Assembly (NCBI GenBank): GCA_905160935.1
Contig: CAJHZI010000741.1
Span: 407,501-471,500 of the forward strand
DNA from: Enchytraeus crypticus
Lineage: Eukaryota; Annelida; Clitellata; Enchytraeida; Enchytraeidae
Reading direction: 5' to 3'
DNA length: 64,000 nt
The notes below the pieces were generated by a model. It was not told the DNA's origin, did not search any database, and saw only the letters and a program-made list of their open reading frames with translations. Position 1 is the first letter of the stretch; each line of letters begins with the position of its first letter. A program made the position numbers and the translations under genes. Below, piece by piece: positions 180-56,085 of this stretch.

Positions 180-338
180 GCTGGTGCTGTCTATAACTCA
201 CAGTGCTGTAACACCATTGCCACTGCAATCGAAACAAAATGTAAGGTTTCTCTCAACAGTTTTTGACAGAAGTGGTAATGGTTTCCTTGCTGCAGATCAT
301 CAGGGAAATGTTTTCCACTTTGATCTCATTAATAGCAG
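180..338 (+). CDS. TBC1D31: TBC1D31 exon, first WD40 segment
   Basis: Preceded by a T-rich acceptor (..ttttaacacag) and followed by donor gtaaac. The first base closes a codon and two bases are left at the end. Contains NVRFLSTVFDRSGNGFLAAD followed by HQGNVFHFDL, matching the vertebrate segment around GDHQGNIYVFDL. The start codon is not here: reading upstream in frame meets a stop at 172-174, so a splice is needed. Confidence 0.85.
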
Positions 339-3300
339 GTAAACCTAAATTTATTACATCTGACTGAACTTTGCTAACCTGTAGGCTGTCTAAGATCGAC
401 AGTGTGTGAGAGGAGAGAGTAAGAGAGAGAAGAGCGGGGATGACAGTGAGAGAAAATATGTTTAATAGCATATGAAATAAAGTAAAAGAATTATAAAAAA
501 GGTAGCAGGCATTATAGTGCATAATCAGCTATGTTGATATCTATCACTTTTTAATACCACATGTTTAAACCGTTAGGCAATTTAGACCATTTTCCATATG
601 ACCAGTCCAGTGATTGTCCGAGATTTTACTCTCAGATCAGCGTGGCTAGGATTCGAACCCACAAGGGTTCAATTCACCTCAGGATCTGTCATTTAAAACT
701 TCATAATATGAGATGGAAGAATCATAAGATAACATAAAAATAATTAACCAAGGCAAACTTAACGTACTACGAACTGTAAAGTCTAAGCATTTATTAAACT
801 GTAGAAGACAAAAACTGTAGTAGAAAACAATTTCAGCAGTTAAAAAAACAGTTAGATTATGAGAACATTGGAAATGTAATTTTTAGTTAATAATTTCTAG
901 CATTATCAAGTATAGTACAGGTCAAAATCTCTGTCTTCATCATTTACAAACCTTTACAGTTTATTCAGAGATTTCAAACTGTTTATTCATAGATTTGTTA
1001 GCAATGATTTTCTTAATTGATTCAACTAGAGTTAGTATTATTGTTTATCTAGTTATATTGATATTTAGCTGTAATAAATAATAGGATCATGTTTAAGGTT
1101 TAAGCTGATATTGAGGTCGCTGTGTAGTGACCCATTTTTGATGTTTAAGGTTTAAGCTGATATTGAGGTCAGGTCAGGTGCCTGGTTGTTTGGCCTTTTC
1201 CCTCTCTTGCCCTAATGAGTTCCTCATCTCCAATGCTGACTACTCTCTCAGCTGTTATGATAGTGGTTTGTAGTGGTTTACACTGCTTATTATTGGTGAT
1301 ACCAGTTATTACTGGTTTAAAATGTTATTACTTGCTGATGCTCTCAAGTACTGGCTGATACCAGTTATTACTGGTTTTGCAATGCTTTCACTGGTTAGTA
1401 CAGTTGGCTGATGCATTGTCTAGTTATTACTGCATTACACTGGTTATTGGTGTATGATGCTTGTTAGTACTGGCTGATACTGGTAAATGTGTGATTATTA
1501 CTGGTATAAGCTGGCTATTGTTGATTAGTGCTGGGTAGTACTGGCTAATACCAGTTATTACAGCTTTACACTGGTTTTTGATTGCTGATGTTGATTAGAA
1601 CTGGCTGATACTAGTTAATACTTGTTTAAACTGGTTTATGATAGCTGATGTTGGTTGGTATGCTAGTTACTAAGTACTGGTTTAAACTGATTCTTGATTG
1701 CTGCTGCTAGCTGGTACACGCTAATACTAATTATTACTGGTTTAAGTTAGTTTTTGCTTACAGATACTGGTTAATACTGACTGATACTAGTTAATACTGC
1801 CAGTGAATAAGATTGGTTTATACTGGCTAATACTGGTTAATACTGACTGATACTAGTTATTACTGCCAGTGAATAAGATTGGTTTATACTGACTAATACT
1901 GGTTAATACTGACTGATACTAGTTATTACTATCAGTGATTACCACTGGCTTATTGTAGCTAATACTGATTAGTACTGACAGTTCTATAGACTGATCAGTG
2001 TGACACAACATACAGGCTAAGATCAGTACAAAGTTTAGCGGAGGAGGCTTTTCGCTATTGTTTTGAGGCTTGTATTTGCGGATATGGTTTAGTACAGAAA
2101 AGTAACGATTGCAACTGGCTGCCATCTGGTAGAAATAGTTCAACAATTTTAGCTTTAATTTATCTCCTGTAGCTTCAGTATTCTTACTGCCAGGGAGGTA
2201 CCCATCATCAATATCACTACCAATTGTTATATGAATAACCACTATTATTTAGGATTTAGCATAAATTTGCTTTATATAAACTAAATTTTAAGTTATAAAG
2301 TTTATCATCATTTATTACAAAATTCACATAAATTCAGTACTAGTATACAAGTGTGTATTTAATTGAATGGCTGTGTATGTGTGTGTGTATAGAGAGCATA
2401 CAACTGGTGGATGTATGTGTGTGTAAAGAGAGCAGACAGCTGGTGGATGTATGTGTGTGTATAGAGAGCATACAACTGGTGGATGTATGTGTGTGTATAG
2501 AGAGCATACAACTGGTGGATGTATGTGTGTGTAAAGAGAGCAGACAGCTGGTGGATGTATGTGTGTGTATAGAGAGCATACAACTGGTGGATGTATGTGT
2601 GTGTATAGAGAGCATACAACTGGTGGATGTATGTGTGTGTAAAGAGAGCAGACAGCTGGTGGATGTATGTGTGTGTATAGAGAGCAGACAGCTGGTGGAT
2701 GTATGTGTGTGTATAGAGAGCATACAGCTGGTGGATGTATGTGTGTGTATAGAGAGCAGACAGCTGGTGGCATGTATGAGGGGCCACCAGTCTCTCATAT
2801 CTCATATATCGGTGGATAGCACTGGTGTGTATGCAGTCAGCTGTTCACTGGACACCGCTCAACTTTGGGATCTCAACACATTCCAGCGCAAGAGAAAACT
2901 CAATGTGAAGCAGGGCGTCGGCATTGTCAAGGTTACTTTATATATGGCGTTTTATGTTGAACTTTATTTCTTTCATAGTTGATTGACTGAGTGGTTATTG
3001 CATTAGCGGTTTGATAATTAAATAGTGTGTGAGTTTCAATGTGTGTGTTGTCCATAAATAGCTTTACTTATTGATGAATCATTGTACACAATGGTGTTGA
3101 ATGAAAGCTTGTAATTGGATGATACTCGGGTGATGTTGAATGAATGCTTGTGATTGGTTGATACTCAGGTGATGTTTATCCCGGGCACCACTCAACTGTT
3201 GACGTGTTTTAAGGACGACTCATTGTTTGTGTGGGATAGTGAAACTCTGCAGTGTTTGTATGAGCTACACACTACAGCCTCTGATACAGTGCTACCTAGT

Positions 3301-5090
3301 AGCAATAGAAAAACTCCCTCATTCAAGACATTCGCTATTTCTGGGTATGATAAACTTCTGTTCAACTTTGTACAAAATTCGTATGAGGTTGTGCAATGTT
3401 TGTTACATTTTATTCAACGTTGTACCAGTTTCACGATGTTCACATGATGTACTAGTATCTACACTGTTTGTTAACATAACGTTACTATTTTACTAGTGTT
3501 TTGAGTTCAACGTTGTATTAGTATAGATAGCAGTGTTCACATGAGGCTCTGCGCTGAAAAGATCTCGACCATCAATCTCTTGAGCTAACCGGATATCTTT
3601 CTTACTTATCCTGACATCAGGCGTACTTCAGGATTTTTAATGAAGCACTCCTCCATGATTTCTCCAGTCTTACTCCATGATTTCTCAGTGTTACTCCATG
3701 ATTCCTCCAGTCTTACTCAACTTCATGATTCCTCCAGTCTTACTCCATGATTCCTCCAGTCTTACTGTATGATTCCTTCAGTCTTACTCCATGATTCCTC
3801 CAGTCTTACTCCATGATTCCTCAAGTCTTATTCCATGATTCCTCCAGTCTTACTCCATGATTCCTCCAGTCTTACTCCATGATTCCTCAAGTCTTACTCC
3901 ATGATTCCTCCAGTCTTACTCATGATTCCTCTAGTTTATTGAATTGGAGAAATTATGGAATCAGCCTAGAGGAATTATGAATACAATGTAATACAATGCA
4001 ATGAAGATGTAAAGTTTGATCCCTTGCTCAAAGGCGATGTAAGGAACGTCTCAAGCGGAACATACTACTACTTGCAGTTCAATAGTCAATACCACCCAAT
4101 GCACTAGTAAATGTACAGTCCTAAGAGAAAGAAAGATCAATAACAGCGCAGTTAGTCTGAGAGGGGCTTACCTCAGACTTCTTGTCTACATTTGAGAACC
4201 TAGCTAACTCACATACACGAACCTATGCTGTACTTACACTGTCTGACAGGTTCAAGACGTAAATTGTTCAGCTTGTTATCATTGTCAACTTTGCTTTGAT
4301 TGAGCATATCCTCCTAAGTGATCTCCTTGCTGTTGTTGTTGTTGTTGCTGTACAGCTACGGTGTTGACACTGATCTCCCTCCTAATGCTGCCAATGTCGT
4401 AGATAATTAGTGTGTGAAATAGACCTTAAATGTGTGCTGTCGTGTTGTAAGAGGTAATTAAATGCTAGTGCAGGAAGACTACTTAAAAATCACTTCTCTA
4501 ATTTGCAAAAATCAAGTCTACATCAATGTTATTTAAATCAAATAGCTTCATTCTAGATTCATGTAAAACCTTGACCCTTTTGATTTAGTGTCTTCTAGAT
4601 CAACGTTATGTAGTCTTTTTGTAGGAATATTGTAGGACCTTGTCATGGACCTATCTTTTTTGTTGGATCAGTGTTTAAGAATTTGCATCTCTATGCTTCT
4701 GATTTTATGCACAGAGATGGACAGCTGTTGGTGGGTGCAGGAAGGTCAAGGTTTGTTTATGTGTGGTTGCTAAGCAGCCGGTTGTTACTAAGGGTGATAG
4801 AACTGGAGCTGAGTGTGACATGTGTCAATCAAGTGGAGCTGATACCAGATCTTTTCAGCAGTGGCTGTCAGGTAAGCACTATGTCTGGTGAGCACTGTGC
4901 CTGTCAGGTAAGCACTATGTCTGGTGAGCACTGTGCCTGTCAGGTAAGCATTATGTCAGGTTTGCACTGTGCCTGTCAGGTAATATAATCAGAGTGCCTG
5001 TTAGGTAAGCACTGCTGTGCTGTGCTGTTCACTTAACCGGTCAGTTAAACTCTGTTAGGTAGCTGCATAAAAAATAAGGGACCAATTGCG

Positions 5091-5167
<77 letters not shown>

Positions 5168-5999
5168 TGTCACCAGTAGTTCAGAACGCACATGCTTCTC
5201 TGCTGTAAGTCTAGTGTGAAATAGAGATTGACTGAGAAAAGAACCATGACAGTCTGTTACTTGTCAGCTAGACCAGTCTGAACGCACTGTAGTGTAGAAT
5301 ATTGCAGAGTGCAAATGCACCCTGGTGTAGAATATTGCAGAGTGTGAATGCATCCTAGTGTAATGTATTGCAGAGTGTGAATGCATCTTAGTGTAATGTA
5401 TTGCAGAGTGTGAATGCTATCTAGTGTAATGTATTGCAGAGTGTGAATGCATCCTAGTGTAATGTATTGCAGAGTGTGAATGCATCTTAGTGTAATGTAT
5501 TGCAGAGTGTGAATGCTTCCTAGTGTAATGTACTGTAGAGTGTGAATGCATCCTAGTGTAATGTACTGCAGAGTGTGAATGCATCCTAGTGTAATGTATT
5601 GCAGAGTGTGAATGCATCCTAGTGTAATGTATTGCAGATTGTGAATGCATCCTAGTGTAATGTACTTCAGAGTGTGAATGCATCCTAGTGTAATGTATTG
5701 CAGAGTGTGAATGCATCCTAGTGTAATGTACTGCAGAGTGTGAATGCATGAATGTATTGCAGAGTGTGAATGCATCCTAGTGTAATGTATTGCAGAGTGT
5801 GAATGCACTGTAGTGCAGAGTATTGTGGAGTGTGAATACACTGTGGCATAGAGTATTGCCGAGTTTGGAAAAAGGGAGAAGACAAAAATTGCTGAAATGT
5901 TTACATTTTTAAAGGCTCTGGACGTATTGTTCTAGGCTCAAGACGTATTGCTAAAGGCTATATATGAATTTTTAAAGGCTTTACACATTCTGTTACAGG

Positions 6000-6075
<76 letters not shown>

Positions 6076-9000
6076 TGTTATAGATATATACATATTGTTT
6101 TAGACAATTCATGTATTGTTATAAGATATACAACAATTGATATAGGCTATTATATGCGTATTGTTATACTCTATCCACATATTGTTTATCTGTGCACTAA
6201 ATTTATATTATATAATACTTAAGTGACTAAATTATGGAAGAATGGATTAATTACTTGATTAGTTAATTTAATGTTTGAATAATTGACTGATTGATTAATT
6301 GACTGATAGATTAATTGATTGATTCATTGATTAATTGAATGATTGATTTAACGCAGACACTGCTGGTACTGACTCAGGACGGGCTGGTACGAGGTTTGAA
6401 CCTGCAGAGCTATGAGGAGGTGTTTAGGTTAGGAGCCGGGGACTCTAGCCACAGGGCCATGTCTATGTGTGTGTCTGCAACAGGGCGACATCTGCTGTGT
6501 ATAACAGACCACGGGGATATCAATCTGTATGATATGAGTGTGGTCAATGGGGCTAGTCTTAACAAGGTATCCAAGATAATAATAATAATAATAAGCGAAA
6601 GACATCTTTTCTTTGGCGAAGGCTTTCCATGACTTTGCAAAGATTTAAAATGGTTAATACCGGGTGTCTGCTTCAACAATTCTTTTAAGCCGATTGATGA
6701 CCTCGAGTATCCGGGCGGCGATTCAGCACGTATTGCTTGAATCGTTTTTATCAAACCCCAGGTTCTTTACACCGGGGTAAAAAAAAATATAATCATAATA
6801 ATAATAAAGATTTAACGTCCGTTTCCTCATACAAGGTTGATGTCAGGGACGTCTCCCCCCCATCACATGTCACTGCAAATCGATTCACCTCAAACGATCT
6901 GAAATAACATGTTCTGAAGAGAAGGAAAAAGAGCCTAAATGGTGCCGGTCCGGTGAGGTGATAAAAAACAGTCAGGCAAGATGTAAAAGTCTACGGTGGG
7001 AAGAGATGGTTTTTCAACCTACAACGGAAAGTGGAAGTAGTAGAACATGAGCGAAGATCAGGAGGCAGAGAGCTCCAAACGGTAGGAGCGGAGAAAATAA
7101 ATGAACGTCTACCTAACGAAGTGAGAATTTGATATGATATGATACAATGTAATATATTACAATACAATACTGCACAATACAGTGCAGTGCAATACAGTAC
7201 AGTAAATGCACTGCAACACAATACATAAATACTATACAATACCAATAAATACAATAAAATACAAAAAATATCATGAAATGCAGAGAAAACAATACAATAC
7301 AAACTATACAATACGCGGAAATACAGTGCATATCTTTGCAGTACAATACTGACAATAATGGTAATACTGACGAAGTAGTATGAAACAATAGTGCGTTATT
7401 ATTGAATACTGAGATACCACTTAGATGTTATGTATGTATCTATCATTTAGGTGATTGTATTATTGCAGACACCTGCTCCACTTGTTAAGCTTCAAAAAAC
7501 TTACAAAATGACTGATCATACTCCTAACTCTACTGTATCACTGAGTGCAAGGTCACAGCTAAGTAGGTCAAGGTCATTGAGATCTGCCCTCGAGGACAGC
7601 AAGGAATTACCGCAGGAAATTCCAGAAAAGATCAGCATTGCACGGCTACTGGCTATACTGAAAGAATTTGGAGAATACCCGGCTAAATATCGGTAATTTT
7701 CCTTTCTATTCTAGTCAAAATTGTAAATATTGTTGTGTTTAAGTAGCTTGTTATTTTCCTTGATATTTAACAAATATTGTAGAAAAAACCATTTGAAATT
7801 GTCCTGTCAAACTTTTTAAGATAGGTACAAAATTGTTATGCTTTAGAGATTTTACAGAATCCTTTATTGTCAGAATTAAGATTGCTTAATAAGCAACGTA
7901 AAAATGGCTTCTTCAGCTAAATTCATCTTGCACATCTCAACAACTGCATAGTGGTGGCTGTTGTATTTTGAACTATGTTGCTAGAATCTCTAGAAAGAAC
8001 CCTTAAACCAAAATCATTATAATCATCATCTTCTTTTGTATCCTGTTTAACTTGGGTTGGGATTAGAAAATTTTGTAGCAATTTCTTGAGCCTACATACT
8101 CATCAACGAATACCTTTTCTGACGTCGTTTTGGTTTAGAGTGCTTTGTCGCTTTTTACGACACGTGCAGTCGACGTTGGTCTACTCTTCACAACCCGAAC
8201 ACAACACGGGTAGGGCACCCGTAAATTATGAAAGAGATGTCTCAAAAAAGATCTTCATGGTATTTGGGAGGATATATCCCAGTATTCAATGCAGAAATTC
8301 ATTCTGGCTTTTGAGAAGCTGATGGGCGTCACACTGAGAGTCTTCTTAAATATACTCTCTTTATATCATCTCTAAACAGCATTACGAATGTTTATATGAC
8401 GCGATCTGTTGAAGTGTATTTGACAACACTGAAGCCTACGTGTGTATCATTGTATTGTACGTACGTGCGTACATACGTATGTATATATGTATGTACGTAC
8501 GTATGTATGTCTGTGTGTATGTATACATATGTACGTGTATATATGTATGTATGTGTGTATGTATACATATGTACATGTGTATCTGTATATGTATGTATGT
8601 GTGTATGTATACATATGTATTTATTTGCGTATGTATGCTTATGTATATGCGTATATGTGTGTATGTGTGCATGTTCTAGCATGTTCATATGGCGCACTCT
8701 GTTGAGGCTACCAGACAACACTGAGGCCTATGCAGCTCTGGTTGATAAGGGAATTCACCCAGCCTTCACTCAGCTGCATCAGAGTTACCCCGTCAAGAGC
8801 AGAAAACTGCTGCGTGTACTACAGAGGTTAGTTACTGTGCATGTGTGTGTGTGTGTGTGGGTGTGTGTGTGTGCGAGTGTGATTGTGTGTGTATTCTAGA
8901 ACCGAACACTTCTGGATGTGCTACAGAGGTTATTTACTGTGCGTGTGTGTGAGTGTGTGTGTGTATGTGTGTGTGTGCGTGTGTGTGGTGTGTTTGTGTG

Positions 9001-12000: not shown

Positions 12001-12823
12001 TCCAATTTTTCTTTTTCTACTCACATAAATAATCTCTTATACTCAAGTTCCAGCAATATTTTTGCTTTGTATAGTCTACGCACTAAAGGACTATCCAACG
12101 AACTCATTCAGAGAGTATTTCAAGCATCTACATTAAATAGGCTTCTCTACGCATCCCAATTCTGGTGGGGTTTTACCACTGTGGACGATAGAAAGAGGCC
12201 TGAAGCTTTTTTGAGACGAGCAAAAAAAGGCAAATTTCTGCAACTTGGAATCCAGTTTTGAAGATTTGTGTGCTTCAGCTGATTATAAACTTTTTAATAA
12301 TGTACATAGTGATAGCGCCCATCTATTTACCCCGCTTTTGCCTCCACTTTCCTATCACCCATATCTAACTAGAAGAAACGTTGCTGGTAGAAATTTCACA
12401 CTTCCTACTAAACGAAATAGTTTAAGTGACAAGAACTTTATTACCAGTATTATACTTGAAGATGCTAGAAATTATTAACTTTTAACTTACAATGCCTACC
12501 CGTTTATTTTTAAACTGCTGAAATTGTTTTCTACTACTGTTTAATAATGCTTAGATAGCTATATGTGACTTTAGAACTCTTAAAGTAGGATAAGTTTGCC
12601 TTGGTCAATATTTTTAATGTTATCTTATTATTTTCAATCTTGTATTTTTGATTTTCTGCCCGTATCTGATGCATTGCTATGTTATCTGTCATATTGTTAC
12701 AGTCTGCGGTTTGTCAGATTGATTATGGAAATAAAAGGAATAGATTATTATTATTATATATTATGTATATTTTCTTTTTCTTTCTTCTGCTCTTACTGAT
12801 GACCGTTTATATAAATATATAAG

Positions 12824-12896
<73 letters not shown>

Positions 12897-13062
12897 CATC
12901 ATCATCCTCCCTTGAATCCCAGTTTAACTAGGGTCGGGATACGAATAGAGTGTCTCAAATCCTCTCTCTCTCCTACATCACACCACCAGCCAATCCCCTA
13001 TTTGAGAATTTTCCGTATATATAATATATATAGATATATATAATGTATATAATACATATACA

Positions 13063-13117
<55 letters not shown>

Positions 13118-15984
13118 TTATTTATTTATTTATATATACATGTATATCAGACTACTCTCATGTACTACAGATATACGCCTGGCCGCTGCTTGAGACTTTC
13201 TTTTCGGAGGTTCTTACGAGAGAGGAGTGGTTGAGATTGATTGATCATGTCTTCACTAATCAACCCTCGTTTCTGCTCGCTGCCGCGGTGGCTTACTGTA
13301 TTGTGGGACGTGCTGCTCTGCTGAATGTCACTGAGAGAGCTGACTTTGTGGTGAGTGACCGATGGATTGATGTATTGAAAACTGTCTGATTTATTGTTTG
13401 ATTGAATGATTTATTGATGATTGATTGATAGATTGTTTGGCTTGTAGATTGACTGATGGACTCTTTGATGGGTTGATTGATTGTGTATTTAATAAATTCA
13501 TATGTTGATTGATCTATAATGAGTAAATTAGAGTTGACATATGATAATAAATTGATTGATTGGCTTAGTCATGGACTGATTGATTAAGTAATTGTTTGAC
13601 TGATTAATATTACTACAGTACTATTTTCATCATCGCAATGCACTGAACATCAATCAACTAATAAAGGAGTCATACAGTATTCTGCAAGCCACGCCCACTG
13701 ATCTTCACCCTAGCGTAGTGATGGAAGATTTCAAACCACTCGCCAGGGGCGCTTATCCAGTCTTTAACAAGTACCCAAAGTTCATCGTCGACTTCCAGGT
13801 TTGTGACCTCTTAATCTTATTAAGCAACTGACCTCGGCTGTGACTTCACTTGTTTATCTATATTGACAACTGACCTCGGCTGTGACTTCACTTGTTTATC
13901 TATATTGACAACTGACCTCGGCTCTGACTTCACTTTTTTATCTTCACTGACAACTGACCTAGGCTGTCACTTGGCTTGTTTATCTTCACTGACAACTGAC
14001 CTAGACTGTGACTTCACTTGTTTATCTTCACTGACAACTGACCTAAGCTATCACTTGACTTGTTTATCTTCACTGACAACTGACCTATGCTGTCACTTCA
14101 CTTGTTTATCTTCACTGATAACTGACCTAGGCTGTCAATTCACTTGTTTATCTACATTGACAACTGACCTCGGCTGTGACTTCACTTTTTTATCTTCACT
14201 GACAAATGACCTAGGCTGTCACTTCTCCGTTTTTTTTCTTTACTTACAAATCTCCCTTTCTTTTCTTGCCATTTGCTGTTTTTTTCTCAATTTTAATCAT
14301 TGTATTCTTCAACAAATCGACTCCCTAAGAACTTATCCTCTATTTGTCCTGTATGTACCCTCTATGTTTCCTCCGTTTGTCTTCTGTCTCTGCTGTGTGT
14401 CTTGTATGTGTCCTCTTTGTTTTCTGGTTGCCTTTCTGTTTTTATCATCCTCAGATAGGTTGATAGATTACATCTGATATATTGATTGAATTCTACCGAC
14501 AGGAGTATTACATCTGGCAGATAGATTGATTTATTACATCAGAAAGAGGGATAGATTGATTACTTCTCTGATAGATTAAGTGTTTGTTTGACGAATAGTT
14601 GGTATTTCGTATTCACTTAAGTTATTACTTGACAATTGATTAATTAGGTTGCAGAGAGAGAAAGGATAAGAAAGGAGGAAGCTGAGTTAGCGAGACAAGC
14701 AATGCTAACTACAGAGCTTCGAGGAGAGATAGAGAGAAAGAGAGAGGAGGAGAGAGAGTGGTTCAACCAACAGGAGGTGTTAGCTGAGGCTGAGAGAGAG
14801 AGACAGAGAGTGATAGAGAGAGAGGAACACAGACTGAAGGAGCAGAGGACTAGGTATGTGTGTGTGCGTGCGTTTGTGTGTGTGTGGTGTGGTTTTGTAT
14901 GTATGTGCGTGTACATGTCTAAAAGCAGTGAGACGTTGGTTAGACATTCGACCAATTTGCTTTGGCTCATTTACTAAATCTCCCGATTTCTTTCAGACGA
15001 TGAAACTGACTCTAAATGAAGAATTTTTATTTTTATTTTCTATTTTATTTTTATTATTTTATTTTTATTTTTATTTTTTAAATGCCCTGGGCTGTAAAGG
15101 ACCCTGGGCTAAAAAATAAGATATAAGAGACTTTATTTAATTAAAAGTTGAAAAAGAAGCGATTAAATAATTCCTCTACACTCTGGGAAGCCGCATTATC
15201 CAAAGTGCCACTGACACAGACAGCAATTAAACGCTGGAGAGCAATAGACAGTCGCTGCCAAAGAAAAGCTTTTTTCACGCTTATTACCAGTAATGGCGCT
15301 TTTCCTCCTGCCTATTTCGTCAATAAAGTCTGATGCGACAGAGTTGATGGGGCCCAGGGTCTCAAAGGCAATAGGCATGAAGATATAGTTGCTAGAGATT
15401 TCGGCATACTTCAGAGTTTTCCTATTAGCCGCGGCCTCTGCAGCAGCACCAGCAGCAGCGCAAGATTGGCCGAGATTGTTTAGTGTCCGTAACGGTGACG
15501 TCCCAGCTAACACACTTGCCCTCTGACCATGGAATTTGTGAGACACCGTCCGGACGCTTCCCATCAGTGCGGATTAATCCCAAGGGCTCTTTAACGGCTG
15601 GAATATTCGCTCGACTCAGGGCGCGCCAGATCAAATCGTTTGGGAACTGATGTCTGCTGATTCTGCCGGCACTACGCTTGCACGACAGGCCGTGAATGCC
15701 TAACGCATTGATTGAGACACCACAAATGCAGTTGTGTGGCTCACATAAAGTAGTGCCCAGACGGAGACCAGACGCGACTCTGACTGCTTCGTCGTCAAGG
15801 CGGAGGCCGCATGATGAGATTGGTAAAGCCTTGATCCAGTCTCCACCATGAGGGGCCGACACTGCGAGCAGCCGCGCCTTTTCTTGTGGTACTAACGGCT
15901 TCGCAAGAAGTTCCATGTGCAAAGCAGTAGTGACCTTTGAGTCCCAAGCCTTCATGCTCTTAGACATTATTATTATTATTAGCA

Positions 15985-16019
<35 letters not shown>

Positions 16020-16633
16020 GTTTATGAGCAAGGTATGACTGGAACTCTTACTAGAACTAGAACCTAGCTTTATTCTTATGTTTGCTCTGTAATGGAATAG
16101 CCTTACTTACCCTACTATATTAACTGATTGATTGATAGATTTATTGATCGTTTCATTGGTTGGTTTATAGATTAATAGATTGATTTACTGATTGATTGCT
16201 AGATTTATGGAGTGATTTGTTAAGTAAGTAATTAAGAGATTGAATGGTTGGCTGATCGTTTGTTGCCTTGATTGCTTGGTTCGTTGTTTGGTTGGTTGGT
16301 TGGTTGATTAGTTGGTTTATTGATTGATTGATTAAGTAATTGATTGGTTGATTGATTGATTTATTGATTGATTGATTAATTAATTGATTGGTTGGTTGAT
16401 TGATTGATTTATTGATTGGTTGATTGATTGATTGATTGATCGATCGATTGATTGATTGATTGATTGCTAGACTGATGGCCATGAGGAGGGAGATGGGGAT
16501 GAAGGAGTTAGAACTGATGGAAGCTGCTCGACGCAGATTTATGAATTATTCTCAACAACAGAAAGAGGCGGAGCTTGTCAGACTAGACAACGAGATACGT
16601 AAAAAGGTCTCTCACTCTTTCTCTATCATTCTC

Positions 16634-16667
<34 letters not shown>

Positions 16668-17677
16668 CTCTCTTTAACCCTCACTTTGCTTTCTTTCTCA
16701 CGCCCCTCATCCGTGCGTTTCTCTGATACTATATACATTTATGTCTTTGTGGATATTGTGAGCATTTGTGTCTGTTTGTGTGCACTTTAGTGTTTGTATG
16801 TAAAGAGTGTACTCTACGTATACACGAGTATGTGTGCATTTGTAGGTGAATTTTAGAACAAAGGAGAAGCAGACGTCCAGTTATGAGGTGACAGTACATG
16901 TGTGTATGTGTGTGTGTGTGTGTATGCGTGTGTGTATATATGTATGTGTGTATTTGTAGGTGAACGCTAGAACAAGTGAGACGCAAGCAGCCATTGATGA
17001 GGTGACAGTACATGTGTGTATGTGTGTGTGTTTGTGTGCGTGTGTATGTGTGTGTATATATGTATGTGTGTATTTGTAGGTGAACGCTAGAACAAGTGAG
17101 ACGCAGGCAGCCATTCATGAGGTGACAGTACATGTGTGTATGTGTGTGTGTTTGTGTGCGTGTATGTGTGTGTGTATATATGTATGTGTGTATTTGTAGG
17201 TGAACGCTAGAACAAGTGAGACGCAAGCAGCCATTGATGAGGTGACAATTCGTAACATGGAGCTTCAGATACAGAGGAAACTACTGGAACAGGTAACAGG
17301 ATAATTGAATATTTATAGAAAGGCTAAAGGCTAGTTTAAAGGCAGTTTTCTGTCACTAAACATGCCGGTTGCGTTCACTGGATTTGAACCTTGCTGCTAC
17401 TTATCCATATTTAATACTATCTCAGCCCTCATGAGTAATTGATTGGTATTTGACTTATTTGGATTTTAATAAGTTTTTAAGTGTTATTTACTGTACATCA
17501 ATGATGTATGTTTGGTGTATTTATTAATTCATTAACAAGTAGGGAATAAATTAAACATGATCTACTGATCTTTCGATTTATCCTTTGACTGACCGGCTTC
17601 CCTATGACCGATTGTTTGATTAATTGCTCAAGTGATAGGTAGGTAGGTTGGCATCCACACAGACAGACAGACAGACA

Positions 17678-17716
<39 letters not shown>

Positions 17717-19407
17717 TGACTGATTGATTGATTGAAGGAGTTGTGGAGACAGGAAGTAGATTTAACAAGGAGAAGGAGAAGTGAGACAGACGCGTGGATG
17801 GATGAGGAGGACAGGCAGAGAGACATACGGTGTGACAGCCAGACAGACAGAGATAGACAAGTGACAGGACTTAGAGAGGTACTGCTGTCTATATAGAGGA
17901 ATAGATTGATATCACTCTCCTGTGTTAATCGTTCAGTCATTGTCTAACCCAGCACGAGTTCAGCTGTTCATCAGCCGAAGATGATGTGACGTTCGTCGCT
18001 TTACAGGATTGATTGATTAATAAGATAATTATATAATGATTGATTGAATATTTTATTGATTTATTCATTAATTGAATAATTAATTTCTAATACAGTTGAA
18101 TCAGCATCTAGCAATCAATATCTTGATTGATTGTTAAATCAATCAATCTACTTATTGAAGAATTGATTGAATATTTTATATTATTGATTGAATAAATAAT
18201 TTATTGATTAATTAATTCATTGATGGGCTGACTGACTAACTGACTAACTAATTGATTGATTAATTGATGGATTAATTGATTGATTGATGGATTGATTGAA
18301 TATTTTATTTTATTACTGATTTTGAATAAATAATTGATTGATTGATTGACTGATGTAGTGACTGTTTGATTGAATAATTGATTGATGTTAAATGCATTAC
18401 ATCATCATAACGTCATGTGTTGCATGACGTCATGATGACGTAATGTGATGCTATGATGTTGTTTATCTCGTAGAGTCTCTCTCGTCGCGTTGGACTGTGC
18501 AACTCTGAACTCTCGGACCTGCAGCACAGATCAACCGCTAATCAAGCCCTTATGAGGCAGAGATTAGAAAAGGCTGAAGATCAGAGAACTGCTGCTGTGG
18601 TACGTTAATCAATCAATCTATCTATCAATCAATCAGTGAATCAATAAGTCTGTCTATCTCCTCCTAATATAAATCAATCAATTTTTCGAATCAATAAATG
18701 TCTCAATGAATTTATCAGTCAATCAATCAATAAACTCTATTATCAAATGACAATTTCATGATAAAACTATAATTCTACATTGACTGTGTTATCCTGGCGT
18801 CTTTGTTGCTTTGCTGAAACTGACGCATAAATTTTAGCGCTGCGATTCAAAGCAAACTCTGATATTGTTGTTTTTTATATTGTATATGTTTTGCTCTAAA
18901 TCCCGCCCCAAATCTCTAATGTTGCTCTTGTTATTGTTGTTTCTGCTGCTCTTGTGTTGACTGTAGTTGATGTTGTTATTGACGGATGCTGTTTATATCT
19001 GATGTTGTTGTTGTGTACTGATGACAGTTGAAAGAGTTGAGGAGCCAGAACAGAGAGTTAGAAGTTGAAGTTTTGCAAGCCCTGAAGCGTTTAGAGACGA
19101 CCAAGGTAGGCAGTCTCTTATTTCTTTTCTCTTCTGTTTTGTTTCTCTTCTGAATCACGCACGTTTTTTAATAAATTATTTCCTGTTCTATATTTGTTAC
19201 TTACTGCTATACTATGAGTTATCTCAATTGTTTTCATTGCTGTCTCAACTTAAATTTAAGCCTAGGTCTCTACATATACTTTTATTGTGTTGGCTGACCG
19301 GCTAAATAGGACACTGTCCTCATTGAGGATCTGTGGTGTGTGTGCATGTGAGTGTGTGTATCAGGTAGATATACTCTGTATCATGGTAACTGAATAAACA
19401 TAAATAT

Positions 19408-19447
<40 letters not shown>

Positions 19448-20263
19448 TATGCTCTATTCCTTATGTGCATTTTACATTAATTTTCTCTCCGCTTTTCTGC
19501 AGATTGCACTGTCAAGGCACATATTTCTCATGTAAACATAGTTACACATTCAGCATAAGATCGCTTCTAAACCTGATTAAAACATACACATTCAGCATAA
19601 GATCGCTTCTAAACCTGATTAAAACAGAATTTTTATTTCGTCTACTGTTCATTGATTGATTGAATGATCAATTGATTTACTGATAGATTGATTTGTTTAT
19701 ATTGATTGATTGACTGATAATTTGATTAATTGTGTGGACAGATTTCCGCTGTTCGAGATGGACAATCAGATCCATTAATTAGATCATCGGTGCTGGAAGG
19801 TCATAGGTCATTAAGCATGACGTCACTGGAGAGTGCAGATAGGTTATCAGCTGATGACACGTATAGTATAGGTAAGAGTAGCTGTGTGATGAATACTTTA
19901 TAGACCTTCACGTCAATTAATCTATCTGTCATCATATCAATTCATCAATCAATCAACCGTGTGAATTGATTGATTGAATAGTGAATGAATACTGTGTACT
20001 CGTGGTTATCTTTTCAGAGGCGATGGATAGTCAAATATCAACGTTGAGAAAAGTCACCATACTATTCATCATTACATGACGTAGCTTTAGCGTGTGCTGA
20101 ACATGTTCCTCACAGTGTGCTAAATGTCATCATGAAAGTCATTGAACATGTTTCAGGGTCAAGGGAGAGAGAGTTTCTAGAGAACAGAGAGAGAGAGTTA
20201 CTCAGTGACGTCATCGACGTGCGTCATAGGATAGCCCAGCAACAACAACAACAACTTGTCTAA
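180..20263 (+). CDS. TBC1D31: TBC1D31 (WDR67) orthologue, 19 exons placed, 5' end incomplete
   Basis: Composite gene model built by matching conceptual translations to remembered vertebrate TBC1D31. Exons: 180-338, 2760-2931, 3169-3344, 4715-4871, 6357-6566, 7469-7692, 8680-8826, 9476-9609, 11005-11138, 13171-13350, 13619-13798, 14648-14853, 16471-16606, 17200-17292, 17738-17878, 18474-18599, 19028-19105, 19742-19871 and 20157-20263. All junctions are AG/GT with compatible phases, giving about 963 codons; the vertebrate protein is about 1,066 aa. Order: WD40 blades, linker, TBC domain, coiled coil. Known family role: a centrosome/centriolar-satellite scaffold linked to ciliogenesis. In the TBC part I see neither the arginine-finger (IxxDxxR) nor the glutamine-finger (YxQ) motif, so GAP activity is doubtful, as in the vertebrate protein. 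Missing: the initiator exon and one WD40 exon expected between 339 and 2759. Introns are loaded with tandem repeats and retroelement fragments. Confidence 0.93.
511..705 (+). repeat. Dispersed SINE-like family C, copy 1
   Basis: Shares about 180 bp with 21319-21510 and 47798-47975, including gttgatatctatcac, gtccgagattttact and a B-box-like ggattcgaaccc. All three copies have the same orientation. A B-box-like motif suggests a Pol III origin, but no A box was confirmed. Confidence 0.75.
719..855 (-). mobile_element. 3' tail of CR1/L2-like retroelement, truncated
   Basis: The reverse complement matches the 3' untranslated part of the element at 11,480-12,750 (shared aactgctgaaattgttttct, aagtttgccttgg and ttatgttatctta). 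It is a 5'-truncated copy in the opposite orientation to the host gene. Confidence 0.7.
1200..1990. repeat. Degenerate ACTGGTTAATACTG repeat field
   Basis: Many imperfect copies of ctggttaatactgactg and ctgataccagttattact, becoming more regular toward 1780-1930, where units of about 70 bp repeat nearly exactly. An old, diverged minisatellite. Confidence 0.8.
2390..2770. repeat. 36-bp minisatellite on exon acceptor (2760), 11 units
   Basis: Unit 36 bp, agagagcatacaactggtgg + atgtatgtgtgtgtat. Two main types alternate: A (cat..aact) and B (cag..agct), in order A B A A B A A B B' A' B'. The last unit runs into the exon at 2760, so exon bases acagctggtgg are part of the unit and B units carry the acceptor cag. 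The array is open in the exon's frame. Confidence 0.92.
2760..2931 (+). CDS. TBC1D31: TBC1D31 exon, WD40 blade (MRGH...DTAQLWDL)
   Basis: Encodes QLVACMRGHQS, then DTAQLWDLNTFQRKRKLN and GVGIVK, nearly identical to vertebrate TBC1D31. Ends in phase 0 at donor gttact. The acceptor AG (2758-2759) sits in the last unit of the 36-bp minisatellite, so alternative upstream acceptors are possible. Splicing 338 directly to 2760 would also keep frame but would omit one WD40 segment. Confidence 0.88.
3169..3344 (+). CDS. TBC1D31: TBC1D31 exon, WD40 blade (CFKDDSLFVWD)
   Basis: Acceptor ..gatactcag, donor gtatga. Encodes VMFIPGTTQLLTCFKDDSLF then VWDSETLQCLYEL, aligned with the vertebrate CFKDNSIFAWE segment. 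Starts in phase 0 and ends with two bases of a Gly codon completed by the exon at 4715. Confidence 0.9.
3345..4714. repeat. Intron with 22-bp minisatellite (3643-3935)
   Basis: About 14 units of tccatgattcctccagtctt + ac, some truncated. The remainder (3936-4714) is unique-looking sequence with a short gttgttgttgtt tract near 4330 and no recognisable gene. Confidence 0.85.
4715..4871 (+). CDS. TBC1D31: TBC1D31 exon, WD40 blade (DGQLLVGAGRS...)
   Basis: Acceptor ..atgcacag, donor gtaagc. Encodes DGQLLVGAGRSRFVYVWLL and ends VELIPDLFSSGCQ, matching the vertebrate stretch that ends FLPDSFDAGSNQ. Ends in phase 0. The donor and the last exon bases are repeated downstream in a 36-bp array, giving further in-frame donors. 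Confidence 0.88.
4863..4990. repeat. 36-bp minisatellite carrying the splice donor (exon 4715-4871)
   Basis: Three full 36-bp units from 4872, each ending tgcctgtcag followed by gtaagc, so every unit recreates the exon end ggctgtcag and a strong donor. A diverged fourth unit follows. In frame each unit would add 12 residues (VSTMSGEHCACQ). A copy of cctgttaggtaagcac sits at about 4998. Confidence 0.9.
5092..5163. repeat. (CT)n microsatellite
   Basis: Nearly uninterrupted CT dinucleotides within the TBC1D31 intron. Confidence 0.95.
5285..5870. repeat. 33-bp minisatellite, about 17 units
   Basis: Unit agtgtgaatgcatcctagtg + taatgtattgcag. It has no stop on the minus strand because 33 is a multiple of three, hence long artefactual minus ORFs. 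Each unit ends attgcag, an acceptor-like string, but no exon match was seen. Confidence 0.92.
6000..6070. repeat. (TA)n microsatellite
   Basis: About 33 uninterrupted TA units, followed by TA-rich decay to 6200 and then TTGATTAA-type sequence up to the exon at 6357. Confidence 0.95.
6357..6566 (+). CDS. TBC1D31: TBC1D31 exon, last WD40 blade
   Basis: Acceptor ..ttaacgcag after a TGAT-rich tract; donor gtatcc; phase 0 at both ends (70 codons). Encodes TLLVLTQDGLVRGLNLQSYE and later GRHLLCITDHGDINLYDM, matching vertebrate VLGVLSQDGIMRFINMQ and NGSLNIYSV. Confidence 0.9.
6605..6745. repeat. Dispersed repeat E, copy 1
   Basis: Matches 48690-48800: shared actttgcaaagattta, caattctttta and gatgacctc...ccgggcg. 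Function unknown; two copies in the window. Confidence 0.7.
6780..7130 (-). pseudogene. CR1/L2-like retrotransposon 3' end fragment
   Basis: Minus-strand reading at 6995-7127 gives GRRSFIFSAPTVWSSLPPDL then FRCRLKNHLF, the typical C-terminus of CR1/L2-group non-LTR polyproteins. Downstream on the same strand comes a 3' UTR with gacgtccctgacatcaacc, gaggaaacggacgttaaa and a TTATTATTA tail, shared with 46551-46630, 55790-55845 and 60990-61097. The 5' part is absent, so it is a dead copy. Confidence 0.78.
7131..7440. repeat. AATAC-rich low-complexity stretch
   Basis: Irregular tacaatac and gcagtgcaatac copies. The minus ORFs here (YCIVL-type) are compositional. Confidence 0.6.
7469..7692 (+). 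CDS. TBC1D31: TBC1D31 exon, linker between WD40 and TBC parts
   Basis: Acceptor ..tattgcag, donor gtaatt. Starts TPAPLVKLQK (vertebrate PPPPLVKV), runs through a Ser/Arg-rich, poorly conserved linker, and ends LKEFGEYPAKYR, matching LKGYGEYPTKYR. Ends with two bases of the final Arg codon. Confidence 0.92.
8022..8228 (+). repeat. Dispersed repeat D, copy 1
   Basis: Starts with a CATC run and carries ttgggttgggatta, attttgtagcaattt, ctcatcaacgaatacc, and tttacgacacgtgcagtcga. Shared with copies at 12896, 21575, 45339/46300 and 63826, all in + orientation. Confidence 0.8.
8388..8440 (+). pseudogene. Decayed partial copy of TBC1D31 exon start
   Basis: About 53 bp aligning to the start of the real exon 292 bp downstream: atgtttatatgacgcgatct versus atgttcatatggcgcactct, then gacaacactgaagcctacg versus gacaacactgaggcctatg. 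The Trp codon is now TGA and one base is inserted, so it is non-coding. A GTAT/TACG microsatellite (8455-8670) separates copy and exon. Confidence 0.85.
8455..8675. repeat. GTAT/TGTA microsatellite field
   Basis: Irregular tgtatgtatacatatgtac tracts immediately upstream of the exon at 8680. ORFs in all frames here are compositional. Confidence 0.9.
8680..8826 (+). CDS. TBC1D31: TBC1D31 exon, start of TBC domain (MFIWRTLLRLP)
   Basis: Acceptor ..atgttctag, donor gttagt. Encodes MFIWRTLLRLPDNTEAYAAL, then VDKGIHPAFTQL and SYPVKSRKLLRVLQR, almost collinear with the vertebrate protein. Both edges have decayed copies nearby: the exon start at 8388-8440 and the exon end at 8900-8928 and 9057-9085. 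Confidence 0.95.
8840..9095. repeat. (TG)n tracts with two copies of exon 8680-8826 3' edge
   Basis: The last 29 nt of the exon plus donor gtt recur at 8900-8928 and 9057-9085, each preceded by ttctag and separated by TG tracts. The first copy reads RTLLDVLQR against KLLRVLQR in the exon and keeps donor gttatt. The second has lost the final AG of the exon edge. Confidence 0.85.
9096..9475. other. Intron remainder, nothing recognised
   Basis: AT-rich, no repeat family or exon seen before the exon at 9476. Confidence 0.5.
9476..9609 (+). CDS. TBC1D31: TBC1D31 exon, TBC domain core (LAHWSAIF)
   Basis: Acceptor ..attatatag, donor gtcagt. Encodes VLSLLAHWSAIFGETDYLPM, then FPFVKIFQNNQLSCFEILAT. 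Where canonical TBC proteins carry the YCQG-type glutamine finger this has LAHWSAIF. Ends with one base of a codon completed by the exon at 11005. Confidence 0.94.
9723..10585 (+). pseudogene. RTE-clade non-LTR reverse transcriptase, 3' fragment
   Basis: Open frame 9723-10265 begins in the RT palm with KLRYADDTTL (YADD catalytic motif), followed by LFLNIKKTKIM, FLGSKI, YGCESWTLKKADRRRIDAFE and LWCWRRVLRV, a string typical of RTE/BovB-like elements. A stop at 10266 and a frameshift near 10430 break it. The remaining frames still read LSYFGHVMRAS and, finally, SRLRLNG before a stop at about 10578. The 3' end is ttatcatcatcaataaa. No N-terminal endonuclease is present, so the copy is 5'-truncated and dead. 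It lies in the intron between exons 9476 and 11005, same orientation as the host gene. Confidence 0.88.
10600..11000. repeat. TGAT/GATG/GATA tetranucleotide field
   Basis: Perfect GGAT run at 10751-10782, then TGAT and TAGA runs up to the acceptor at 11004. Confidence 0.9.
11005..11138 (+). CDS. TBC1D31: TBC1D31 exon, TBC domain (NWCSHWFEYFPNPP)
   Basis: Acceptor ..ttaatacag. Encodes NWCSHWFEYFPNPPLNVLSV and ends LVHHNITSQ, matching vertebrate NWCQHWFEYFPNPP and IDHDITSQ. The end at 11138 is the first donor-like site. The last 27 coding bases plus donor (cacag/gttatt) recur in frame to about 11458, so mRNAs could retain extra 13-residue units. Confidence 0.92.
11112..11458 (+). repeat. 39-bp minisatellite carrying exon end and donor, 9 units
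   Basis: Unit ctcgtccatcacaacatcac + gtcacaggttattacatct, 39 bp (13 codons, SLVHHNITSQVIT). The first unit is the real exon end (HLVHHNITSQ/donor). Each unit keeps cacag/gttat. Variants are single-base (gtc to atc, VIT to VMT). The frame stays open until 11474. Confidence 0.93.
11480..12750 (+). pseudogene. CR1/L2-group non-LTR reverse transcriptase, 3' half
   Basis: Frame 11497-12258 encodes IALDFSKAFDTVRHSHMLDK, INASVVQGSAIGP and the catalytic LLKYADDTYL, then a thumb region ending RRAKKGKFLQLGIQF. A frameshift near 12245 shifts to a second frame that ends HPYLTRRNVAGRNF..FITSIILEDA and TAA at about 12476. A 3' UTR of about 270 bp and an ATTATTATTATA tail follow. The endonuclease part is missing, so it is 5'-truncated. 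It sits in the TBC1D31 intron, sense orientation. A second tail of this family is at 719-855. Confidence 0.88.
12810..13130. repeat. TA-rich tracts flanking repeat D copy 2
   Basis: (TA)n at 12834-12890 and 13055-13105 bracket a fragment of repeat D at 12896-13015 (ttgaatcccagtttaacta, gggtcgggatacgaataga). Confidence 0.85.
13171..13350 (+). CDS. TBC1D31: TBC1D31 exon, TBC domain (YAWPLLETFFSEVLTREEW)
   Basis: Acceptor ..gtactacag, donor gtgagt, 60 codons, phase 0. Encodes IYAWPLLETFFSEVLTREEW and then FTNQPSFLLAAAVAY, very close to the vertebrate protein. Confidence 0.95.
13619..13798 (+). CDS. TBC1D31: TBC1D31 exon, end of TBC domain
   Basis: Acceptor ..ttactacag, donor gtttgt, 60 codons, phase 0. 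Encodes YYFHHRNALNINQLIKESY, ATPTDLHPS and YPVFNKYPKFIVDFQ, matching vertebrate FFHHRNNLDINVVI and YPVFNQYPKFIVDYQ. A 42-bp array starts immediately after the donor. Confidence 0.94.
13799..14228. repeat. 42-bp minisatellite starting at the splice donor, about 10 units
   Basis: Unit acaactgacctcggctgtga + cttcacttgtttatctatat + tg. The first, diverged unit begins at the donor (gtttgtgacctc). 42 bp is 14 codons; the frame is open (TTDLGCDFTCLSIL) but not joined in frame to an exon I can justify. Confidence 0.9.
14229..14647. other. Intron remainder, T-rich then TGAT-rich
   Basis: Pyrimidine-rich to 14450, then attgattgaat-type sequence to the acceptor. Nothing else recognised. Confidence 0.5.
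14648..14853 (+). CDS. TBC1D31: TBC1D31 exon, coiled coil 1
   Basis: Acceptor ..attaattag, donor gtatgt. Encodes VAERERIRKEEAEL and later REEEREWFNQQEVLAEAERE, matching vertebrate QERERIRNDE and DEAWYQKQELL. Highly charged Glu/Arg helix. The AG at 14652-14653 would meet a stop in the required frame, so 14648 is preferred. Confidence 0.9.
15185..15990 (-). pseudogene. Retroelement-associated conserved domain, frameshifted
   Basis: Minus frame 15988-15425 contains APHGGDWIKALPISSCGLRL, then DDEAVRVASGLRLGTTLCEP, CGVSINALGIHGLSCKRSAG and KEPLGLIRTDGKRPDG. I recognise this as a C-terminal region repeatedly found next to reverse transcriptase domains in invertebrate genomes, with Cys/His spacing (C-x-C ... 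HGLSC) resembling a zinc knuckle. Frameshifts near 15450 and 15265 move the reading to frames with AAAGAAAEAAANRKTLKYAE and the end. No RT domain is present. Antisense in the intron between exons 14648 and 16471. Clade assignment uncertain. Confidence 0.55.
15960..16470. repeat. (ATT)n and long TGAT/TTGGT field up to acceptor
   Basis: ATT run at 15967-16019, then gattgattgatt, ggttggttggtt and related tetranucleotides from 16120 to the exon acceptor at 16470. Confidence 0.92.
16471..16606 (+). CDS. TBC1D31: TBC1D31 exon, coiled coil 2
   Basis: Acceptor is at the end of a long TGAT tract (..gattgctag); donor gtctct is weak. Encodes MRREMGMKELELMEAARRRF and then KEAELVRLDNEIRKK, matching vertebrate KEMHLQDAARRRF and ELRRLDDEIGRK. 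Confidence 0.92.
16607..16845. repeat. (CT)n tract and intron sequence
   Basis: CT run at 16638-16664 directly after the weak donor, then unassigned sequence rising into TG-rich DNA. Confidence 0.8.
16846..17250 (+). repeat. Four tandem copies of exon start plus acceptor (114-120 bp period)
   Basis: Copies of the 48-nt exon start begin at 16846, 16960, 17080 and 17200, each preceded by tttgtag. Copies 2 and 3 are nearly identical to the real exon; copy 1 is diverged but open (VNFRTKEKQTSSYEVT). In copies 1-3 the 48 nt are followed by gtacat, a possible donor, so each could act as an in-frame 16-codon cassette. TG tracts fill the rest of each unit. Confidence 0.9.
17200..17292 (+). CDS. TBC1D31: TBC1D31 exon, coiled coil 3
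   Basis: Acceptor ..tatttgtag, donor gtaaca, 31 codons, phase 0. Encodes VNARTSETQAAIDEVT then IRNMELQIQRKLLEQ, aligned with vertebrate DLEMRQLELESQKRLYEK. Its first 48 nt with acceptor are present in three earlier tandem copies (16846, 16960, 17080). Confidence 0.85.
17293..17737. other. Intron: unassigned, then GACA/GACT run
   Basis: No element recognised to 17640. Then gacagacagaca and gactgactgact runs (17660-17722) and TGAT to the acceptor. Confidence 0.6.
17738..17878 (+). CDS. TBC1D31: TBC1D31 exon, coiled coil 4
   Basis: Acceptor ..gattgaag after GACT/TGAT repeats; donor gtactg; 47 codons, phase 0 at both ends. Encodes ELWRQEVDLTRRRRSETDAW and a charged continuation. Low identity to vertebrates, supported mainly by phase, open frame and position. 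Confidence 0.75.
17990..18420. repeat. TGAT/AATCA-rich intron sequence
   Basis: Irregular attgattgaata and atcaatcaat tracts, low complexity. Confidence 0.8.
18474..18599 (+). CDS. TBC1D31: TBC1D31 exon, coiled coil 5
   Basis: Acceptor ..tatctcgtag, donor gtacgt, 42 codons, phase 0. Encodes SLSRRVGLCNSELSDLQHRS and then ALMRQRLEKAEDQRTAAV. Charged heptad-like pattern. Supported by phase and position. Confidence 0.75.
18600..19027. other. Intron, AATC-rich then unassigned
   Basis: aatcaatcaatc tracts to 18740, then sequence with gttgttgtt runs. No element recognised. Confidence 0.5.
19028..19105 (+). CDS. TBC1D31: TBC1D31 exon, coiled coil 6
   Basis: Acceptor ..ctgatgacag, donor gtaggc, 26 codons, phase 0. 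Encodes LKELRSQNRELEVEVLQALK then RLETTK, a clear coiled-coil heptad stretch. Confidence 0.78.
19106..19741. other. Intron with (CT)n and a short tandem duplication
   Basis: (CT)n at 19410-19443. A 41-bp near-perfect duplication (acacattcagcataagatcg...) at 19542-19623. Then TGAT-type sequence to the acceptor. Confidence 0.8.
19742..19871 (+). CDS. TBC1D31: TBC1D31 exon, Ser-rich tail
   Basis: Acceptor ..tgtgtggacag, donor gtaaga. Encodes ISAVRDGQSDPLIRSSVLEG and then SLSMTSLESADRLSADDTYS, a Ser/Asp-rich, probably disordered tail. Ends with one base of a Gly or Glu codon. Vertebrate tails are not alignable here. Confidence 0.72.
20018..20079 (+). CDS. TBC1D31: Alternative terminal exon of TBC1D31 (candidate)
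   Basis: Acceptor ..atcttttcag. In the phase left by 19871 it reads EAMDSQISTLRKVTILFIIT then TGA at 20077-20079. It competes with the exon at 20157; I cannot tell which is used. An internal donor would be weak (gtcacc at 20053) and would put 20157 into a stop. Confidence 0.4.
20157..20263 (+). CDS. TBC1D31: TBC1D31 terminal exon with stop (candidate)
   Basis: Acceptor ..catgtttcag. In the phase left by 19871 it reads GSREREFLENRERELLSDVI, DVRHRIA, five Gln, Leu, Val, then TAA at 20261-20263. The charged helix continues the coiled coil. The last ~28 nt, stop included, are the first unit of a tandem array. Confidence 0.6.
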
Positions 20264-20512
20264 CCCAGCAACAACAACAACAACTTATCTAGCCTAGCAA
20301 CAACAACAACAAATTGTCTAGCCCAACAACAACAACTTGTCTAGCCCAGCAACAACAACAACTTGTCTAGCTCAGCAACAACAACAACAACTTGTCTAGC
20401 CCAGCAACAACAACAACAACTTGTCTAGTTCAGCAACGACAACAACAACTTGTCTAGCCCAGCAACAACAACAACTTGTCTAACCCAGCGACAACAACAA
20501 CAAGTGCAACTT
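20236..20512 (+). repeat. 23-29-bp minisatellite carrying the stop codon, about 10 units
   Basis: Unit cccagcaacaacaacaacaa + cttgtctag, variable CAA number. The first unit is the end of the terminal exon (A-Q5-L-V-stop). Every later unit keeps TAA or TAG at the same place, so it forms the start of the 3' UTR if the exon is used. Confidence 0.88.
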
Positions 20513-55845: not shown

Positions 55846-56085
55846 AATTACTTTAATAATTGCATTGGTAAGGGATTTCTCTGAGACTATGTAAAGAAGC
55901 TAATTTTCACCAGAGTGTCAATTAAACCTAATGTGATTTTGTACGTTTCAGCGTCGAAACGAACTTCATTCATTCAACATTCTTAACTAGGAATTGTCTT
56001 GTTAGCTAATTAAACATTCTTTTACTTTAACAAACGGTTTCGAAATAATGTAGAATACTGAAGCATTAATTTAACAATTTCTACA

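Follow-up and report, generated by a model that had tools for sequence, protein, structure and literature searches.

Mirage-like minisatellites on exon edges of TBC1D31 and other genes in the annelid Enchytraeus crypticus

Why do so many tandem arrays in an annelid gene include the ends of its exons? The question is raised by TBC1D31 (WDR67) of Enchytraeus crypticus, which lies at one end of a 64,000-nucleotide stretch of genomic DNA (the window; positions 407,501 to 471,500 of contig CAJHZI010000741.1, C643:407501-471500 in our coordinates). Seven of its 38 splice edges, and also its stop codon, fall within a tandem unit that contains exon sequence as well, where about 2 would be expected. 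Every counted unit comprises exon-edge letters, the splice site (or the stop codon), and adjacent sequence, and the copy joined to the exon is the outermost one. These arrays are likely "mirage" minisatellites, that is, tandem duplications of local origin that began with a segment spanning an exon–intron edge. The arrays, verified in the sequence letters and by Tandem Repeats Finder (TRF), and the related repeats are listed here.

1089..1170, plus strand: acceptor 1150 duplicated once, as an exact 30-bp repeat (1089-1118 / 1141-1170) 52 bp apart
1257..1979, plus strand: 60/66-bp degenerate array that may begin on the donor of exon 1150-1269; TRF span 1495-1979; edge overlap weak, not counted
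2380..2778, plus strand: 36-bp array, 11 copies; the unit is TG-rich intron end, acceptor, and 11 nt of exon 2760
3095..3176, plus strand: 39-bp unit in 2.1 copies that include acceptor 3169 plus 8 nt of its exon
4861..4983, plus strand: 36-bp array, 3.4 copies, with the last 11 nt of exon 4715-4871 and its donor
8793..8972, plus strand: duplicated donor end of exon 8680-8826; 8793-8870 recurs, diverged, at 8895-8972 (offset 102 bp)
11112..11456, plus strand: 39-bp array, 8.8 copies, with the last 27 nt of exon 11005-11138 and its donor
13825..14225, plus strand: 42-bp array near donor 13798 with no exon sequence detected, outside the phenomenon
16828..17247, plus strand: 120-bp array of 3.6 copies; the unit joins TG-rich intron end, acceptor, and first 48 nt of exon 17200
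20232..20503, plus strand: 29-bp array on the last codons and stop codon of exon 20157-20263 (sequence, TRF)

In lag plots, the TBC1D31 repeats extend from the intron across the splice site and break off within the exon. The original prediction had placed arrays on exon edges throughout this gene, and most of them are real and lie where it put them: the letters and TRF agree on the arrays at acceptor 2760, donors 4871 and 11138, acceptor 17200, and the stop codon. Two placements did not hold. Both edges of exon 8680-8826 had been read as repeated; the donor is, by the 102-bp duplication, whereas the acceptor scores 24 in our scan, compared with 38-72 for repeated edges. The 42-bp array had been said to start at the donor of exon 13619-13798. 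Because its start lies 27 nt into the intron and the unit bears no resemblance to donor 13798, that claim is positional only. The array at acceptor 3169, exon 1150-1269, and the duplicated acceptor of that exon were absent from the earlier reading.

The assignment of units to edges was examined by comparing 16 array units with all 40 TBC1D31 exon ends, with 40 shuffles each. The units at 2760, 3169, 4871, 11138, 17200, and the stop codon choose their own edge well above the shuffles (at 3169 the unit scores 64, and no shuffle exceeds 40). For the 42-bp unit at 13825, the best score against all 40 exon ends is 28, at another edge and below the shuffled 34. The units of the 60/66-bp array score 42 and 40 against donor 1269, with a shuffled maximum of 34; we left this array uncounted because three units without an edge link (3651, 9631, and 14506) slightly exceed their shuffled maxima too.

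The units are local. In a BLAST search of eight units against 325,738 bases, 7 of the 8 matched their own locus only, and the remaining, TG-rich unit gave a weak match to one other locus (L027), which led us to reject the idea that the units come from a common mobile element. An assembly artefact is extremely improbable: the copies differ in pattern (two unit types are present at 2380-2778), periods vary between loci, and misassembly has no reason to favor exon edges.

The edges themselves come from the following gene model, in which 20 GT-AG-bounded coding exons form a single open frame.

180..20263, plus strand: TBC1D31 (WDR67) gene, 20 coding exons in the window, 5' end upstream of the window
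180-338, 1150-1269, 2760-2931, 3169-3344, 4715-4871, 6357-6566, 7469-7692, plus strand: coding exons 1-7 in the window
8680-8826, 9476-9609, 11005-11138, 13171-13350, 13619-13798, 14648-14853, 16471-16606, plus strand: coding exons 8-14 in the window
17200-17292, 17738-17878, 18474-18599, 19028-19105, 19742-19871, 20157-20263, plus strand: coding exons 15-20 in the window
20261-20263, plus strand: stop codon TAA

The first 624 residues of the encoded protein match TBC1 domain family member 31 in the PDB (E 1.9e-56), and the protein contains the TBC domain PF00566 (E 2.3e-11). Exon 1150-1269 was found by Smith–Waterman alignment over the stretch 339-2770 (score 111, with the 99% level of the null at 59) using a human peptide; its donor was set at 1269 by the reading frame, and the ends of exons 18474 and 19028 were placed by a GT in the sequence. 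In the genomic sequence, splicing at the outermost copies would yield an open, alignable protein. With the outermost donor at 11138, the alignment is gapless to one of two solved relatives and has a 2-residue gap in the other. Relatives of TBC1D31 were also sought in viral and genome contigs, and none was upheld by tblastn.

Since TBC1D31 was chosen for looking striking, independent loci are the decisive test of edge enrichment. We searched the assembly (524,188,772 bases in 802 contigs) and selected test exons in other genes by Pfam matches alone, giving a sample of 24 loci from this one assembly: 19 ten-kilobase TBC-domain loci (L010-L028) and five myosin stretches (L035-L039). Edge-spanning duplications were present at 16/74 edges of the TBC-domain genes (37 exons, 19 loci), compared with 2.55 expected (P 1.4e-8), and at 5/52 edges of the myosin heads (26 exons, five stretches), compared with 1.96 expected (P 0.049). 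Pooled, 21/126 edges carry them against 4.2 expected (P 4.7e-9), an excess of 4.6- to 6.2-fold across seven settings. The capture of exon ends beyond chance that had been proposed for TBC1D31 thus extends to this sample, which is not the whole genome. Both boundary types are affected, with acceptor/donor counts of 4/3 in TBC1D31, 10/6 in the TBC family, and 3/2 in myosin. In one locus (L021), an exon end and its donor recur as a series of near-identical copies (41 bp; 7 counted as decoys), and at three others (L012, L022, and L027) repeats of exon starts with their acceptors follow (TGAT)n or (TTG)n tracts. Across the TBC-family loci, arrays cover 17-25% of the intron as far as the splice site; inside the exon, coverage is 24-25% over the initial 20 nt and then drops to 17% (20-40 nt) and 7% (40-80 nt).

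For these counts, 37 of 40 TBC places and 26 of 81 myosin places were used. One TBC place (C410:757281) lay outside the fetched stretches. The other two (C621:279301 and C621:279415) have in-frame stops and were dropped because, by position, they are decoy copies before the L012 exon. The decoy, pooled, matching, and period analyses omit the final exon of TBC1D31, with its acceptor 20157 and stop codon, and so use 38 edges of this gene. The same two L012 places are intronic decoys of an exon start that score as TBC-domain matches in their own right; such arrays can therefore mislead domain-based annotation.

Simple repeats are concentrated near splice sites, where they could seed duplications: within 50 nt they occupy 18-23% of the TBC-family loci and 25-38% of TBC1D31, compared with about 9% and 15-21%, respectively, beyond 200 nt. 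They are rejected as the entire cause: dense simple repeats about double the background, but a 4.1-fold pooled excess is left after matching for simple sequence repeats (SSRs). Matching for exon GC content leaves 5.0-fold and matching for entropy, or complexity, 5.7-fold, and these were rejected as causes as well.

A duplication process that is equal everywhere could give the same picture if edge duplications persist longer, protected by the lethality of deletions that extend into the exon. This survivorship account follows from selection on exons and needs no special mutation process. It predicts long-lived edge arrays, whereas copy identity is not lower at edges than in introns (medians 0.936 and 0.920, P 0.23), a result that rejects edge arrays being simply older than intron arrays; single decoys could also still be lost individually. 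We regard survivorship as possible, if doubtful. A mutational bias at exon edges is favored over it, since edge arrays are not older and SSRs, GC content, and complexity all leave an excess. The junction-linked amplification that the original prediction put forward accordingly stands as a statistical bias; the mechanism behind that bias is something we infer.

Edge clusters have periods of 29-120 bp with a median of 59.5 (n = 28), compared with an intron median of 35, and longer periods at edges are what geometry predicts. Periods divisible by three account for 13/28 at edges, 39/116 in introns, and 29/102 clusters in L009-L028; we therefore rejected the idea that reading frame makes the arrays tolerable. 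In TBC1D31 itself most array periods are multiples of three (33, 36, 36, 39, 39, 42, 42, 60/66, 102, and 120; the exceptions are 22, 26, 28, 29, 40, and 52), compared with 2/16 in the 20.6-64 kb part of the window. The surplus in this gene is probably chance.

Several observations weigh against an edge bias. Within TBC1D31, three ways of counting disagree. By array seeds, 5/16 non-simple arrays span an edge compared with 1.2 expected (P 0.005, counted before exon 1150 was added), or 5/24 when simple-like arrays are included (P 0.014). By windows, 8/40 edges including the stop codon are affected compared with 2.0 expected (P 0.0012). Per site, however, 6/37 edges lie in duplicated sequence compared with 19.9% of 1735 intron positions, which is no excess; exon interiors stand at 1.7% of 234 positions. 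A first null model likewise gave no excess (5/40 compared with 4.5 expected); it was flawed in allowing random windows deep inside arrays, which the later null corrects. The excess thus appears only if arrays are granted to reach edges by their end copy alone. We hold the seed and window counts to be the proper ones because an array that is unable to cross an exon can reach its edge by no other copy. Outside TBC1D31, the edges were estimated from Pfam matches and splice motifs rather than from RNA. The myosin effect is weak, and restricting it to splice scores of at least -1 leaves 2/40 edges compared with 1.4 expected; the effect is therefore carried mainly by TBC-domain genes. A further count speaks against neutral decoys rather than against the bias: donor decoys retain GT in 44/45 cases, compared with 84% expected (per-edge mean 98% compared with 83%).

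The per-site count, the first null, and the marginal myosin value are what would be seen if introns are about one-fifth tandem array and some arrays simply land on edges and are tolerated, with no junction bias. Once contact by the end copy only is built into the null, the 21/126 pooled edges still exceed the 4.2 expected, and a 4- to 6-fold excess survives matching. Chance placement is hence unlikely.

What becomes of the repeated splice sites? We defined a decoy as a copy lying within 900 nt that is at least 75% identical outside the AG or GT, which yielded 113 decoys from 28 array edges. AG or GT is retained in 94/113 (83%), compared with 81% predicted from the identity of the rest of the copy, which supports the tolerance of repeated splice sites suggested earlier. 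Decoys are not cleared away: those of acceptors look neutral, and those of donors lean, if at all, toward preservation. In TBC1D31, the genuine acceptor 2760 is the outermost copy, and 4/10 of its decoys retain AG; the sole decoy of acceptor 3169 has no AG. AG or GT persists in 3/3 decoys of donor 4871, 8/8 of donor 11138, and 3/3 of acceptor 17200. As a separate observation, each 120-bp unit (16960-17241) holds a 42-nt block between an AG and GAG/gtgaca that would encode 14 in-frame residues and appears microexon-like.

The high retention of donor GT would suit a selected function in which spare splice sites buffer mutation or yield in-frame isoforms, comparable to the minisatellite of human IFI6, and so would the read-through that is open and in frame at 2760, 4871, and 11138. 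Acceptor decoys, on the other hand, are not preserved (AG in 50/68, with 79% expected; per-edge mean 77% compared with 77%). Copies within an array share descent and are not independent, decoy use or read-through hits a stop at 1150, 3169, 8826, and 17200, and periods are generally not multiples of three. We consider a selected function quite unlikely. Because decoys are unpurged and roughly neutral, the edge arrays most likely have no function and record positions at which duplications arise, or persist, more often than in introns.

On the mirage reading, copying would run from exon into intron; the direction is suggested by the exon side of the arrays, which encodes residues that are present in human TBC1D31 also. 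After seeding, arrays may be enlarged by slippage or unequal exchange, and simple repeats next to splice sites, or short intron–exon matches, would have helped to seed many of them. The splicing machinery would ignore the decoys by taking the site attached to the full exon. In its strongest form, which we offer tentatively and would not yet bet on, a mutational process duplicates exon–intron boundaries about 4-6 times more than introns, so that about one-sixth of coding-exon edges shed copies with their splice site into the intron, and near-identical decoys within tens of bases are invisible to splicing, in which the choice must be made by exon context.

Related structures are known from other animals. 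The minisatellite of human IFI6 (also G1P3 or 6-16) was reportedly described by Turri in 1995 as supplying multiple splice donors that are said to be used. It shares with the worm arrays a minisatellite with a splice donor at an exon edge; it concerns one gene where many are involved here, and the worm arrays are known at the level of genomic sequence. Introns arising from tandem duplication were reportedly described by Zhuo in 2007; the worm donor and acceptor ends, in contrast, are not mutual copies. Tandem repeats that overlap splice sites and alter gene structure were described by De Grassi in 2009 (PMC2812944).

The closest counterpart is found in amphioxus. According to the published reports, amphioxus mirages are minisatellite-like duplications of exon–intron boundaries in Adh3, the globins BflGb6/BflGb9, troponin C, and PGBD5, with units of 10-72 bp (Adh3) and 150-160 bp (globins) (PMC3087553). 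They involve the 5' or the 3' boundary, many, not all, copies retain AG/GT, and regular splicing is reported to be undisturbed, as judged by reverse transcription PCR (PMC3087553; PMC3902484). Their length is described as unstable between haplotypes and somatically, and the mechanism behind mirages is called unclear there (PMC3087553). The worm units resemble them in straddling the exon–intron boundary at either end, with AG/GT in many copies and lengths of 29-120 bp. They differ in their annelid host, in affecting 21/126 sampled edges rather than single genes, and in that edge enrichment and decoy retention have been measured. Among annelids, the accessible part of a study of earthworm metallothionein describes intron minisatellites and exon-4 duplications that are absent from the transcript (PMC12783039). 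The two cases share an annelid host, intron minisatellites, and extra exon copies; as far as that part goes, the earthworm arrays are not described as edge-seeded, and they concern a single gene family.

The amphioxus paper also suggests that mirages could give rise to new introns (PMC3087553), which would fit the Rogers model of intron birth by tandem duplication, with the repeats as the two ends of young introns. In TBC1D31, however, 0/19 introns show donor–acceptor end similarity at the 99% level of unrelated pairs. The ends are not copies of each other, and these are therefore not newborn introns of the Rogers type; intron birth is a very unlikely explanation.

The likeness to amphioxus raises the matter of the host, and a lancelet was ruled out by mitochondrial gene order and the COX1 code. 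The 12 protein genes that could be named on the mitochondrial contig share a strand and follow the annelid order: cox1, cox2, cox3, nad6, cob, atp6, nad5, nad4L, nad4, nad1, nad3, nad2. Of these, cox1 was confirmed by Pfam. The host COX1 reads with the invertebrate code. A search of the assembly for the GFP family gave 0 matches, which lends weak support only, as the search had no positive control. Five more COX1-like fragments (contigs C361, C424, C796, C373, and C166) have stops in the standard reading and are perhaps nuclear copies of mitochondrial DNA.

Other features accompany the locus. Reverse-transcriptase remnants (PF00078) lie in two TBC1D31 introns, at 9717-10265 (E 6.1e-8) and 11380-12258 (E 4.7e-17). 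Farther along the window, the stretch 56062-57968 holds a sugar-transferase open reading frame (PF04488, E 3.1e-20) and, downstream of it at 57129-57968, about 28 tandem copies of a 29-bp unit. Immediately upstream of the window, half of the 10-kb stretch L009 reads N.

The mirage structure itself was already known from amphioxus; what is new here is the annelid phylum, the prevalence, and the measured edge bias. In the literature that we searched, we found neither a description of annelid mirages nor a genome-wide estimate of edge enrichment. Mirages were previously known from a few lancelet genes, and their frequency in a distant phylum provides many independent cases that bear on why tandem duplication favors exon edges and on how splicing handles near-perfect decoys. 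Such arrays can mislead gene annotation, and new exons and introns may be built from them.

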